Assembly (NCBI GenBank): GCA_016872675.1
Contig: VGZG01000013.1
Span: 1 to 56,394, forward strand
Direction: 5' to 3'
DNA: 56,394 nucleotides
From: Planctomycetota bacterium
GTDB taxonomy: Bacteria > Planctomycetota > UBA1135 > UBA2386
Of the stretch, positions 41,274 to 45,899 are shown one piece after another. Within the stretch, counting starts at the first letter, position 1, and each line of letters starts with the position of its first letter. A program made the position numbers and the translations under genes. The notes below the pieces were generated by a model. It worked only from the letters and a program-made list of their open reading frames with translations, did not search any database and was not told where the DNA came from.

Positions 41274-41711
41274 TCAGTAGACGCGGACCGTCACGGTGCG
41301 ATCTTCGGCGACGACGATGCGCAGCACGTAGCCGCGCAGCGATTCGTCGACGATCAGCACGTCGGCACGCGCGCCCGGCTGCTGCGCGAGCGCCTGCAGC
41401 AGCGCGGCTGGAATCGTCACGATGTCGCCAACGACCAGCAGCGCGACCGAACCGCCCGCGAGTTCGTCGCAGAACACCGCGGTTAGGCCAGCACCCGCGC
41501 CTGTGGTCTGCAGCACCAACGGCTGGTCGCCGCCGACGCCCGTATGGACGTCGCGCGGTGCGCCGAGCGATTCTCCGGTGAGGAACGACGACAGCGGCAG
41601 AACCCACACGCCGGTGCTGCCGCCGCCCGGACCGCCGCCGCCCGAGACGCCCGGCAACGCAAGCAGCGCGGCGAGCAGCGCGACGGTCAGCAGGTGCAGC
41701 AGGGAACGCAT
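41274..41711 (-). CDS. Small secreted hypothetical protein
   Basis: 145 residues: signal peptide (1-24, hydrophobic core LLTVALLAALLALPG), then a Gly-rich linker and a beta-rich domain with VWVLPLSSFLTGES and VADVLIVDES-like strands. Family unknown. It is the downstream gene of the sigma factor/TPR unit, 23 bases after the TPR gene, so it may be part of that operon. Confidence 0.6.
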   Translation of the reverse strand: MRSLLHLLTVALLAALLALPGVSGGGGPGGGSTGVWVLPLSSFLTGESLGAPRDVHTGVGGDQPLVLQTTGAGAGLTAVFCDELAGGSVALLVVGDIVTIPAALLQALAQQPGARADVLIVDESLRGYVLRIVVAEDRTVTVRVY

Positions 41712-41734: not shown

Positions 41735-42796
41735 CTAACTGACCGTCGGCGGCAAAGGAGGGGCGGAAGTGCGGAAGTTGTCGTCGACCGGTCCGTCGCC
41801 GACCCAACCCGGCAAAGCCTCGGCGATCACGCCGGCCGCCGGCTCGGCGGCAACGAGCGCGACGAAGTCACGGCGTTGGCGCAATTCGCGCCGCATCCAG
41901 GCTTGCTTGTGCGGCATCTCGGCGAGCATACGGCGAAACCACGTCGCCGATTCGGCAAAACGGCGGGCAAAGCCGTGCGCGAGTCCGAGGTTGAAGTACG
42001 CCGTGCCGAGTTGCGGCTGCTCGGCGATCGCGCCGGAGTCGACGACCTGCCGCAACATGTCGACGGCGCCGTCGGCGTCGCCCTGCGCGAGCATCAGGTT
42101 GCCGAGGTTGAGCAGTGCGAAGCCGCGGATGCGCCGGTCGTCGGCGCGCGCCAACACGCGCTCGAATTCGCGACGCGCGCCCTGGACGCTGCCGGCGGCG
42201 TGGCGCGCGAGGCCGAGGTAGATGCGCGCCTCGTGGCAGGCGTCGTCGAGCGCCAGGCACTCGCGGAGCAGGCGCTCACCCTTGGCGAGGTTCGCAGCGG
42301 CGTCGCCGGCGACGCCGTCGAACAGGTCCTTGGCGGCAATCCAGGCGCCGGGGTCGCCGGCGCCGCGCACGGCCTCGTCGACGAGGCTGCGGCCGCGGTG
42401 AGCCATGTCGGGCACCGGCACCGGCTCCTTGGCGACTTCGCGCGAGTACTCCGGCGACAGACCCATCAGCACGTGGCCGCGACCGAGTTCGTACAGGATG
42501 CGCGCGAGCTTCGGCGTGCTCGACGTCAGCACTTCGCGCAGGCCGGCGACGACCGGCGCGGGCGCCGCCGGCGCCTTCGCGTCGGCGCCGGCAGCGGCGC
42601 GATGCAGCTTCATCTGCAAGCGCACGCCATCGAGGAAGCCGCGACAGTGCACGCAGCGGTCGGCATGCACGAGCACGCGGCGCACGCCGGCGGCGTCGAG
42701 TTCGCCATCGACCATCGCCGACAGGTCCGCCTGGATCGGCAGGCACGGCTCGGCGTAAGGTCGTTCCCAGTGGTCGCTCGGCATGGTCCCCGCCAC
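41735..42796 (-). CDS. Zinc-finger anti-sigma-like protein with TPR region
   Basis: 353 residues. The N-terminal 60 residues hold HADRCVHC (H44, C48, C51), the H-x3-C-x2-C pattern of zinc-binding anti-sigma domains. The rest is tetratricopeptide-like (ARIYLGLARHAAGSVQGARR, GFALLNLGNLMLAQGDADGA, TAYFNLGLAHGFARRF). There is no membrane helix, so it would act in the cytosol. Start is GTG at 42796, one base overlapping the sigma gene's TAG, with GGAGG four bases before it; ATG at 42784 is the alternative. Coupling to the sigma factor supports an anti-sigma role, but this is inference. Confidence 0.75.
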   Translation of the reverse strand: MAGTMPSDHWERPYAEPCLPIQADLSAMVDGELDAAGVRRVLVHADRCVHCRGFLDGVRLQMKLHRAAAGADAKAPAAPAPVVAGLREVLTSSTPKLARILYELGRGHVLMGLSPEYSREVAKEPVPVPDMAHRGRSLVDEAVRGAGDPGAWIAAKDLFDGVAGDAAANLAKGERLLRECLALDDACHEARIYLGLARHAAGSVQGARREFERVLARADDRRIRGFALLNLGNLMLAQGDADGAVDMLRQVVDSGAIAEQPQLGTAYFNLGLAHGFARRFAESATWFRRMLAEMPHKQAWMRRELRQRRDFVALVAAEPAAGVIAEALPGWVGDGPVDDNFRTSAPPLPPTVS

Positions 42797-43647
42797 TAGG
42801 CCTCCGCCGCGCCAAGGTCACCACCGCGGGCGTCGGCAGCGCGCTGCCGACCGCCGGCCCGCCGCGCTTGCGCCGCCCCATCCCGTTCGGACTGGGCGAA
42901 CTGCCGCGCCATGCCGCGATAAATCCTCTGGCGACTGCGGAAGACGATCATCTTGAGGTTCTCCGGGCGCACGCCGAGCGCCCGGGCGACGTCGCGGTAC
43001 GGCAGGCCGTCGACTTCCACCAACGTCAGCACGCGCCGTTCGCTTGGCGACAGGCGCTCGAAGTTGGCGAGGTAAACGTGCAGATAGAGAAGGTACGCAT
43101 GATCGAGGGCGAGTTCGTCCTCCGCTTCGCTCGCGGCGCGATCCGGCCGGCGCGTGTGCAGGTCTTCGGATTGCTGCAATTCTTCGTCGATGGTCAACAT
43201 GCGCGCATAGCGCGACTGGCCCTTGAGCGCCCGCAGCAGCGTGTTGCGCACGATGCGATGCCCCCAGTTGCGGAAGGCGTCGACCTTGCCGCCGTCGAAG
43301 CGATGCGGGTAGCGGTAGATGTTGAGGAACACCTCCTGCAACACGTCCTGCGGATCGACGCGCAGCCACGTGCGCCGCAGGCCTTGCTGGATGGCGACGA
43401 GAAACGTGTCGCGGTTGTGCTCGTACAGCAACGCGAACACCGCCGGATCGGCGGTGCGCTGGTACGCGAGCATCAAGCTGGTGCTCGTCCAATCGGCGCG
43501 CGCCTGCTCGCTCGCGGCCGCGGCGACCTGTGAGGGGACGCGGTCGGCCGCGAGGTCGCCGAGCGCGGGATCACCGGTGCGTTGCCACAATTCGCACACG
43601 CGCGCGCGCAACGCCGCGGCTTCGAACGGAGGCTGGAGGGGGGCCAT
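42796..43647 (-). CDS. ECF-type RNA polymerase sigma factor
   Basis: 283 residues. Sigma2 at about 64-145, with VDPQDVLQEVFLNIYRY and FRNWGHRIVRNTLLRALKG; sigma4 at about 197-250, with LSPSERRVLTLVEVDGLPYRDVA (split as LSPSERRVLTLVE and YRDVARALGV) and a recognition helix ending VFRSRQRIYRGMA. The 60-residue N-terminal extension and the long acidic linker (150-195) are larger than in minimal ECF factors. ATG at 43647 is preferred over 43677. It forms an operon with the zinc-finger/TPR gene (overlapping start). Target genes unknown. Confidence 0.88.
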   Translation of the reverse strand: MAPLQPPFEAAALRARVCELWQRTGDPALGDLAADRVPSQVAAAASEQARADWTSTSLMLAYQRTADPAVFALLYEHNRDTFLVAIQQGLRRTWLRVDPQDVLQEVFLNIYRYPHRFDGGKVDAFRNWGHRIVRNTLLRALKGQSRYARMLTIDEELQQSEDLHTRRPDRAASEAEDELALDHAYLLYLHVYLANFERLSPSERRVLTLVEVDGLPYRDVARALGVRPENLKMIVFRSRQRIYRGMARQFAQSERDGAAQARRAGGRQRAADARGGDLGAAEA

Positions 43648-43740
43648 GATGCAGGACCGCAGGACGGAACGCCCCAAGTGTAGTCCGCGCGCCGCCGCGC
43701 CATAGGCCTCCTGGCCGGGACTTCGGCCCCGCCCCGGCGC

Positions 43741-44511
43741 TCAGTGGGCGACGTCTTGCCGCTTGGGCAGGGCGATCACCAGCGCGGCCGAACCAGCCCC
43801 CTGCGCGCCCGGCAGTACGGCGCCACCGGTGGCCCCGACCGCACGGCGGAACCGGTCGACGCTCGCCGACTCGACCCCGTAACCGGGCGCGCCGGCGGCG
43901 GCGCACTCGATCTGCACGCCAGCGGGCGTCTCGCGCACCTCCAGGCTGCGCGCGCCCGCCGACTGCGTGCGCTCGGCGACCAGCGCCAGGGCCTGGCGCA
44001 CGGTCTCGGCAAGCGCGGCGGCCGAACCCCACCACGCCACCGATGTGCTGCCGTGGACGTAGATCGGACGATCGGATGTCGTGTGCTGCTGGGCGACCTC
44101 TTCGCACAGCGCCGCAACGTCGATCGGCTCGGCGCCGGTGGCGGCGAGACGGGCATTGGCCAGCACGTCGCCTTCGGCGGCATCGCACCAGCCGAGGATG
44201 TCGAGCACGCCGTGCAGTGCGCCCTTGATCTGCGCGCGCGTCGCCTCAGCGATCGCGCCATCGAGCGCTTGGATGCGTTGGCGCAGTTCGTCGAGGAAAA
44301 CGCGATGGTTCTCGGCGGCGGCGAGGAAGCGCTCGCCCAACGCCTTGGCGACGTCGCTGCCGCGCCGGAAGGCCGCGTTGAGGTCGCGCTGCGGCGACAC
44401 GACGGCGCGATCGCCAGCGAGTCGCGGCGCCGCGAGCGGCGCCTTCGCCGGCAGCACATAGTTCACGGGCGCAACAGTCACATCAGGAACAACGTCGGGG
44501 CGCGTCGACAT
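43741..44511 (-). CDS. Degenerate histidine-kinase-like protein
   Basis: 256 residues. A helical region at about 60-130 (NHRVFLDELRQRIQALDGAI) has the shape of a dimerisation domain but no clear HE phospho-acceptor motif. The following part (DVAALCEEVAQQ, then WWGSAAALAETVRQALALVA, VEASRSLEV-like strands, GYGVESASVDRFRRAVGATG and SAALVIALP) looks like a GHKL ATPase fold without the Asn box or full glycine loops. It is probably a non-catalytic sensor or scaffold. It lies upstream of the sigma factor gene in the same direction (93 bases apart). ATG at 44511 has GAGG seven bases upstream. Confidence 0.55.
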   Translation of the reverse strand: MSTRPDVVPDVTVAPVNYVLPAKAPLAAPRLAGDRAVVSPQRDLNAAFRRGSDVAKALGERFLAAAENHRVFLDELRQRIQALDGAIAEATRAQIKGALHGVLDILGWCDAAEGDVLANARLAATGAEPIDVAALCEEVAQQHTTSDRPIYVHGSTSVAWWGSAAALAETVRQALALVAERTQSAGARSLEVRETPAGVQIECAAAGAPGYGVESASVDRFRRAVGATGGAVLPGAQGAGSAALVIALPKRQDVAH

Positions 44512-44765
44512 GGGAGGACCTCGATCCACGGCTGGCGGCCGTGGCATCGCCTATTCCATCGGCCCAAAGCGGAACGGGCTTGAGCACAGCCCCGCTAGGA
44601 TGTTCCCGTGCCACCGCGTTCGACCGCCCCCGCCGATGCCCGCCACCGCACGACGACGCCGCTGATCCGGACGTTGGATCGACGTCTGGCGCCTCGCGGA
44701 CGCTTCGCCACACATCGGACTTGCGGCCCGACGTGCGACCACGCCGGACGCCGCCACGCCGGGGG

Positions 44766-45899
44766 ATGCGCGCCGTGAGCCGACCGTCGCCCGAGCGCAT
44801 CCGCGCGATTGCACAGGAGACCGGCTTCGACCTGGTCCGCTTCGGCCCGGCCGATCCGGGCAAACACGGCGACCGCTTCCTGGCTTGGCTCGAGGCAGGT
44901 CGCCACGGCGAAATGCACTACCTCGCCGACAACAAAGAGCGCATCGTCGACCCGACGAAATGGCGCGCCGGCGTGCGCTCGGCGATCGCGCTGGCCGTCG
45001 ACTACGGCGGCCCGGCGGGCGAACTGCCGGGCGGCGGCCGCGTCGCCCGCTACGCCGTCGGCCGCGACTACCACCGCTGGCTGCGGGATCGCGTGTTCCA
45101 ACTGCGCACGAAGCTCGAAGCTGCCGGTCTGCCGTTCGGTTCGATGAACGGCGGCGCCGACGCTGTGCCGGTGCTCGAGCGCGCGCTCGCGGTGCGCGCC
45201 GGCATCGGCTTCCTCGCCAAGAGCGCGATGGTCATCTCGCCGACGCACGGGCCGTATCTGCAGTTGGCCGAACTGTTGACCGGCGAAGAGTTGCCGCCGG
45301 ACCCGCCGGCGCCGGGCTCATGCGGCACCTGCACCGCGTGCCTGCAAGCATGCCCGACCGGCGCCATCACCGCGCCGTTCGAGATCGACGCGCGGCGGTG
45401 CCTCAGCTACACGACGATCGAGCAGCGCGGCTTCGTCGCGCCGGAGCTGCGCGCTGCACAGGGCGACTGGCTGTTCGGCTGCGACGTGTGCCTGGAAGTG
45501 TGCCCGTTCACCAGCATGAGCCGGCGGGCGGTGGCGATCGGCGACGACCGACCGGCGGACCTGCGGCCGCACCGCATCGTGCAGACGTGGGCGCTGGTCG
45601 ACGTGCTGGCGATGGACGAACAGCGGTACGAAGCCGAGTTCACCGGCACGGCGATGCGGCGCGCGACCCGCAGCGGCCTGCGCCGCAACGCCGCGGTCGT
45701 GCTCGGCAACCGCGGCGACGACGCCGCGCTGCCGGCGCTGCTGACGGCGCTCGCGGATGGCGATCCGGTCGTGCGCGGGCACGCGGCTTGGGCTGTTGGG
45801 CAGATCGCGCCGGGGCATGAGGGGTTGGAGTCGGCGCGGAGGAGAGAGGAGGACGGGAGGGTGCGGGAGGAGATCGAGCGGGCGATGGACGTTTCCTGA
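44766..45899 (+). CDS. queG: Epoxyqueuosine reductase
   Basis: Reduces epoxyqueuosine to queuosine in tRNA, a cobalamin- and Fe-S-dependent final step. 377 residues. Two [4Fe-4S] sites: C186, C189, C192 and C196 (CGTCTACLQACP), and C239, C242 and C246 (CDVCLEVCP) with C212 nearby. The catalytic Asp is in ADAVPVLERA (D132). A C-terminal HEAT-like segment from about 300 is normal for QueG. The last 25 codons lie in a purine-rich tract. ATG at 44766 is preferred; GTG at 44775 is possible. QueA is also in this window. Confidence 0.94.
   Translation: MRAVSRPSPERIRAIAQETGFDLVRFGPADPGKHGDRFLAWLEAGRHGEMHYLADNKERIVDPTKWRAGVRSAIALAVDYGGPAGELPGGGRVARYAVGRDYHRWLRDRVFQLRTKLEAAGLPFGSMNGGADAVPVLERALAVRAGIGFLAKSAMVISPTHGPYLQLAELLTGEELPPDPPAPGSCGTCTACLQACPTGAITAPFEIDARRCLSYTTIEQRGFVAPELRAAQGDWLFGCDVCLEVCPFTSMSRRAVAIGDDRPADLRPHRIVQTWALVDVLAMDEQRYEAEFTGTAMRRATRSGLRRNAAVVLGNRGDDAALPALLTALADGDPVVRGHAAWAVGQIAPGHEGLESARRREEDGRVREEIERAMDVS

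Follow-up and report, generated by a model that had tools for sequence, protein, structure and literature searches.

Does the gene of a planctomycete sigma factor form one signalling unit with all of the genes that stand in line with it, or only with some of them? The question is raised by a stretch of DNA of 56,394 nucleotides (positions 1 to 56,394 of contig VGZG01000013.1, assembly GCA_016872675.1; the window) from a Planctomycetota bacterium of the GTDB lineage UBA1135; UBA2386 with a genome of 3.58 Mb. Four genes follow one another on its minus strand: HKL (43741-44511), for a degenerate histidine-kinase-like protein; SIG (42796-43647), for a sigma factor of the extracytoplasmic function (ECF) type; ZTPR (41735-42784), for a protein that joins a zinc finger to tetratricopeptide repeats (TPRs); and sec (41274-41711), for a small secreted protein. 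The original prediction, made from the letters of the window, had named these four genes and the nature of their products, all of which we find as described, and had proposed that they work as one unit in which HKL might be the sensor. The part of this proposal that stands is a pair: the order of SIG and ZTPR is conserved, with sec kept beside them in the window's family, but HKL is not kept with the pair. The reading that we favour, with moderate confidence, is that SIG works with ZTPR as its soluble, TPR-type zinc anti-sigma factor, and that HKL is a separately controlled pseudo-kinase neighbour.

By its domains SIG is an ECF sigma factor, with the region 2 and region 4 domains that define the group (Sigma70_r2, E 1.1e-9; Sigma70_r4_2, E 8.3e-9, each over the Pfam gathering cut-off) and a match to TIGR02937, also over its cut-off. 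An alignment of 33 of 40 SIG sequences (L038, L047, L050, L054, L056, L058 and L070 left out) shows an extension at the N-terminus (about 50 residues; conserved in the window's family) and a variable C-terminal tail. The ZTPR alignment holds 37 of 41 sequences (L047, L048, L050 and L063 left out); in both cases rows were omitted where a contig ended, where the coordinates used ran into a stop or the start was in doubt, or so that the set stayed small. ZTPR matches zf-HC2 in Pfam (22.8 bits against a cut-off of 22.2), as well as TPR_12. Its zinc-finger region (residues 14-48 by Pfam; 42641-42745, minus strand) has the Hx3Cx2C motif and upstream Cys found in class I zinc anti-sigma factors, and of its four ligands C14 and H40 are each kept in 36 of the 37 aligned proteins, C44 and C47 in all 37. 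Residues 82-136 (42377-42541, minus strand) form a middle region with near-invariant columns, which would probably be the last anti-sigma helix and a linker. The TPR helices follow at residues 162-303 (41876-42301, minus strand), where Pfam (TPR_12, TPR_2), the helices of the model and the structure matches agree. The AlphaFold model (mean predicted local distance difference test score, pLDDT, 85) has a helical N-terminal part and then a TPR superhelix; a structure search with it gave TPR proteins only among the matches listed, N-terminal helices of the model notwithstanding. A membrane helix is absent from all 37 aligned proteins, the highest 19-residue Kyte-Doolittle mean of all being that of the window (1.55). 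The claim of a zinc-binding anti-sigma motif joined to TPRs with no membrane helix is thus borne out.

The pairing of the two genes reaches well beyond the window. A first scan of the genome contigs with a single sequence had given no relative; at E 0.001 or better, a ZTPR relative is found in 59 of 61 genomes, a set made up of the genome of the window and 60 others from its genus, family and order. The first 40 longer loci (31 of the family, nine from elsewhere in the order) all contain ZTPR, with SIG directly upstream in 39 of them, and the single miss, L048, is at a contig end. Of 20 further loci all have the pair; 12 of them lie outside the order, in families f27, f47 and f71. A search with a SIG profile gave 132 named loci; among the best 80 of these, which overlap in part with the genomes of the first 40, ZTPR adjoins SIG in 78, and the two misses are L119, which ends just past SIG, and L101, a second sigma copy with no ZTPR. 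Conservation of gene order, chosen beforehand as the test that could overturn the prediction, therefore holds for SIG and ZTPR, and chance can be excluded for this pair because of its adjacency across the order. Relatives in named records are from metagenome-assembled genomes of Planctomycetota, the isolates Pla86 and Pla163, and a bin labelled CL500-15. In a sample of 294 genomes of the phylum, ZTPR occurs in 22/22 of the order and in 4/4, 6/6 and 3/4 of f27, f47 and f71 (13 of these 14 genomes), which probably makes the pair a core regulator of these groups. Thirteen other genomes of the sample have a match at E 1e-10 or better, restricted to short TPR or zinc-finger stretches, and the remaining 246 have none. 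Around the SIG-like gene at L101 (5941-6783), whose assembly also has a normal pair (L094), a Ser/Thr-kinase-like gene can be recognised by eye. A gene for a UvrD/PcrA-like helicase, named by eye, follows ZTPR in 12/12 loci outside the order (L156-L167). Among the conserved neighbours of the pair, as judged from crude gene calls, there is no obvious SIG target.

Taken together, these data make it likely that ZTPR is an anti-sigma factor, and the soluble TPR-type form that had been predicted is well supported by the protein sequence and the conserved pairing. In the mechanism that we propose, ZTPR would be a cytoplasmic class I zinc anti-sigma factor whose N-terminal zinc-finger domain holds SIG, and its TPR domain would be the sensor, so that binding of an intracellular protein or peptide partner would release SIG. 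Solubility by itself would be ordinary: a portion of PMC7406223 estimates the soluble share of class I anti-sigma factors at about 35%, and that of zinc-motif proteins within this share at about 72%; the unusual feature of ZTPR is the TPR domain in the position of the sensor. RsrA is a soluble zinc anti-sigma (ZAS) factor. Like RsrA, ChrR and RshA, ZTPR would be cytoplasmic, with an N-terminal zinc anti-sigma domain containing Hx3Cx2C and a gene beside that of an ECF sigma factor. Passages of a review (PMC8999054) describe soluble zinc anti-sigma partners with a cupin domain (ChrR) or with bare zinc domains, RshA responding via its zinc site; the sensor of ZTPR, in contrast, would be its TPR domain. 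ECF42-type sigma factors also couple TPRs to an ECF sigma factor, but there, according to passages of PMC8999054, PMC8103513 and PMC9023288, the repeats are fused to the C-terminus of the sigma factor itself, whereas here they reside in the partner. In the CRISPR type III-E system Csx29/Csx30/CASP-sigma a TPR protein helps to release a sigma factor from its inhibitor, although in the portion of PMC10028731 that describes it the TPRs belong to the protease that cleaves the inhibitor, and the stretch of the window that we examined has neither a protease nor a CRISPR gene. No PhyR/NepR-type protein, with a receiver and a sigma-like part, is present among the seven proteins scanned around SIG, the rest of the genome lying outside this search. 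Nor was a zinc anti-sigma factor with a TPR sensor found among the listings and passages of the literature searched, from which the main ECF classification paper and the paper on Planctomycetes cultivation were absent. ZTPR would thus be a variant of the soluble zinc anti-sigma systems in which TPRs are the sensor.

HKL has no Pfam match at cut-off and no recognised sensor domain, and a sequence-profile search of solved structures gave nothing reliable (the best hit was an unrelated coiled coil, at E 0.077; the kinase PrrB came at 0.41). Its predicted structure (mean pLDDT 86.5) consists of a helical hairpin (residues 44-124) and an alpha/beta domain of the CA type found in histidine kinases (125-253). 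Foldseek matched the model to ZraS (E 1.3e-7), with EnvZ, RetS and DivL within the first 11 rows, and the C-terminal domain superimposes on the CA domain of NtrB with a Z of 14.3 and a root-mean-square deviation (rmsd) of 2.6 over 121 residues. In an alignment of all 28 sequences found by tblastn, the hairpin has no conserved column for a phospho-accepting His (the best has 5/28), no N-box Asn is conserved at residues 165-184, and the residue placed by eye at the Asp of the G1 box (203) is hydrophobic (V, I, L, C or F) in 28/28; the lid/G2-box stretch looks shortened by eye. Fold and residues together confirm that HKL is a catalytically dead histidine-kinase fold protein, that is, a pseudo-kinase, as the prediction of a kinase-like protein lacking the usual catalytic boxes had it. 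RetS is an atypical kinase that uses the kinase fold for protein contacts, and DivL, in the part of the literature consulted on it, is another. HKL is like both in having the fold without the normal output; it differs in being small and in lacking a sensor domain, the His and the ATP-site Asp.

The distribution of HKL is nearly confined to the window's family, which rules it out as part of a conserved three-gene unit. Within the family it stands in 27/31 loci, in the same order and direction as the pair, and is missing from L048 (contig end) and from L051, L060 and L061, where SIG and queG, the gene divergent to HKL in the window, are both visible. Elsewhere in the order it was found in 0/9 loci by tblastn and 1/9 by profile, in the phylum in 2/199 genomes, which are precisely the two of the window's family included, and in divergent copies at L112, L113 and L132, all of them named loci from the order.

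HKL has, moreover, a promoter motif of its own. In the window this is CTCAAG-N16-CCGATG (44557-44584, minus strand), with a spacer one base below that of most relatives. CTCAAG-N16/17-YCGATG precedes HKL in 20/28 HKL loci including the window, and also in L062 (one site with a final T); of the remaining HKL loci, four differ by one base, as judged by eye, and four have no motif. Across 34 genomes of the family, SCTCAAG-N17-YCGATG has 137 sites against 19 for the reversed pattern. An open reading frame lies behind 49 of the 50 N17 sites examined (20 of which were hand-picked), and nine groups recur: secretin (7), PilB-N-like (5), HEAT lipoprotein (4), PilT-like ATPase (4), HKL (3), FlgB-like (3, all from one genus), histidine kinase (2), small GTPase (2) and response regulator (2). 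Pseudopilin-like genes also follow the motif in genomes of the family. The secretin, type II/IV ATPase, GTPase, pilin N-terminal and receiver domains behind the motif are over their Pfam cut-offs; the names PilQ, PilT, PilB and FlgB are taken from NCBIfam matches that score below the curated cut-offs. In the phylum sample, with counts per group summed by hand, the motif exceeds the reversed pattern by 24 to 5 in the 20 other genomes of the order, by 43 to 3 in the 14 of f27, f47 and f71, and by 28 to 0 in the five of f35. The motif presumably resembles the sigma28/FliA promoter of motility genes: both have two boxes of the CAAG...CGAT kind at a fixed spacing, ahead of flagellum- and pilus-type genes, and the consensus of Escherichia coli sigma28 differs in its spacing and at the terminal CGATG. 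FliA-type sigma factors are present in 34/34 family genomes, 32 over cut-off. In many of these genomes the FliA/WhiG-type sigma genes number two or three and differ clearly in score. The motif would most simply be a sigma28-like motility promoter, with a FliA-type sigma factor as its putative reader. HKL would then be co-expressed with genes of the type IV pilus, flagellar and gliding types, and would act as a protein-binding scaffold and not as a sensor of SIG. For bacteria that are known for the most part through metagenomes, HKL and its motif would in this way offer an initial sketch of a pilus/flagellum regulon.

A different element stands ahead of SIG. Of the 30 family loci with SIG, 20 have GTTACTT-N15-CTATGGCA shortly upstream of the gene (at most one mismatch per half; one with N16), at a nearly fixed spacing and almost unique in each genome (loci L032-L061). 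Allowing one mismatch, it has 20 matches in the 34 family genomes, two of them away from SIG (G009:C38 and G021:C2), and 3 in the reversed form; GTTACTT-N16-TATG likewise has 20 matches, 18 at known SIG loci, against 2 in the reversed control, and the others are G003:C475, probably the cut-off end of another SIG locus, and G004:C59, elsewhere. Profile scores for the element are partly circular, 19 family sites having trained the profile. A SIG regulon defined by this element was considered and dropped: the matches are nearly all at SIG loci, and no target was found. Outside the family GTTAC occurs in 25/54 loci and its reverse complement in 8, but it does not rank with the words of greatest strand skew there, and it appears in 1/12 loci of the other families, so that as a conserved SIG element it would be suggestive at most. 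In the window, CTATGGC (43699-43705, minus strand) is a doubtful candidate for a remnant, the other half of the element being missing, and neither the nearest relative (L031) nor L040 has the element. Its presence in many relatives speaks for a separate transcript of SIG and ZTPR there; the case is weaker in the window, because the element is reduced and HKL ends 93 bases ahead of SIG.

That interval, with both genes in the same direction, is one of several grounds for a closer tie than the one that we favour. HKL, SIG and ZTPR could be one module in this family, in which HKL binds the TPR domain of ZTPR and frees SIG, possibly in connection with pili or flagella; the shared order and direction in 27 of the 31 family loci agree with this, as do the matches of HKL to RetS and DivL, kinase folds that serve protein contacts. 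We nevertheless consider it unlikely, given that almost every other pair-bearing genome lacks HKL, as do three family loci in which SIG and queG are visible, and that separate promoter-like elements stand ahead of HKL and of SIG in many relatives. The more specific proposal that HKL is a sensor of the pair is unsupported, because HKL is absent from most pair-bearing genomes and has its own motif, which is enriched also in a family without SIG. We would give still less weight, as a speculation, to a broader version in which the TPR scaffold of SIG-ZTPR, as an ECF system of several planctomycete lineages, reads an intracellular state at the protein level and HKL, produced along with the pilus/flagellum regulon, has become the TPR ligand in one family, so that motility would gate a core sigma factor, SIG, without phosphorylation. 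The reverse connection, with SIG as the reader of the CTCAAG/CGATG promoters and the pair in control of motility in this family, has in its favour that HKL, next to SIG, carries the motif, and is highly improbable: the motif is enriched in f35, where it precedes pilin-like genes (two of the 17 f35 sites fetched precede relatives of pseudopilin L275, and some others response-regulator-like genes), yet the f35 genomes contain no ZTPR in the search of the phylum sample and no sigma factor of SIG grade by the SIG profile (best match 2.7e-14; the genome of the window gives 5.2e-120, and a distant pair-bearing one 8.3e-65). FliA-type sigma factors are found throughout the family, moreover, and SIG has a different upstream element. 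On these grounds SIG was rejected as the reader of the HKL motif. A last alternative concerns the pair itself: ZTPR might be a positive partner or chaperone of SIG, with the zinc finger as no more than a fold. The strongly conserved middle region of ZTPR would fit this, and in some zinc-containing anti-sigma domains zinc is thought to be purely structural, according to a portion of PMC7406223, but class I zinc anti-sigma factors are usually recognised by just such a zf-HC2 with all C-H-C-C ligands, encoded beside an ECF gene, and we regard this alternative as quite improbable, somewhat less so than the gating of SIG by motility.

Several observations weigh against the reading of SIG and ZTPR as a sigma/anti-sigma pair with HKL as a separately controlled neighbour. 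On the side of the pair, the zf-HC2 score of ZTPR is barely over its cut-off, and a mirror-tree test of SIG against ZTPR gave a partial correlation of 0.32 when queG was allowed for, which is uninformative. The whole-chain TM-scores of HKL to kinases are 0.33-0.41 by query length, with large rmsd. As regards separate control, the window has an eroded SIG element, the proximity of HKL to SIG there makes read-through and a link possible, and the window's own HKL site, with its shorter spacer, fails the N17 form; the one N17 site of its genome lies elsewhere, at a gene that looks by eye lipoprotein-like (L222). The excess of the motif is weaker in the remaining 253 genomes of the phylum (164 against 60 reversed), and some families have none (f17, 3 against 3; f55, 2 against 3). 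Finally, the assignment of a FliA-type reader is drawn from the genes behind the motif and its likeness to the sigma28 consensus.

The predicted overlap of SIG and ZTPR, by one base (TAG/GTG at 42796), holds if ZTPR starts at a GTG there; with a start at the ATG at 42784, the best matches beginning near residue 7-12, the two genes are instead separated by an 11-base gap. On the other side, sec begins 23 bases past the end of ZTPR. Its product has an N-terminal hydrophobic stretch and a conserved GTGVWILP-type motif, the alignment covering 22 of 22 sequences found by tblastn; no known family matched at cut-off, and the best E in a profile search of solved structures was 0.26. As a possible fourth member of the unit, sec holds its place after ZTPR in 28/31 family loci, some at E of only 1e-6, but was not detected there in the nine loci from elsewhere in the order, nor in the 12 from beyond it. 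At the opposite end, the QueG-like gene on the plus strand (44766-45899), divergent to HKL-SIG-ZTPR-sec, has a C-terminal HEAT repeat region and adjoins the pair in most of the loci examined within the order.

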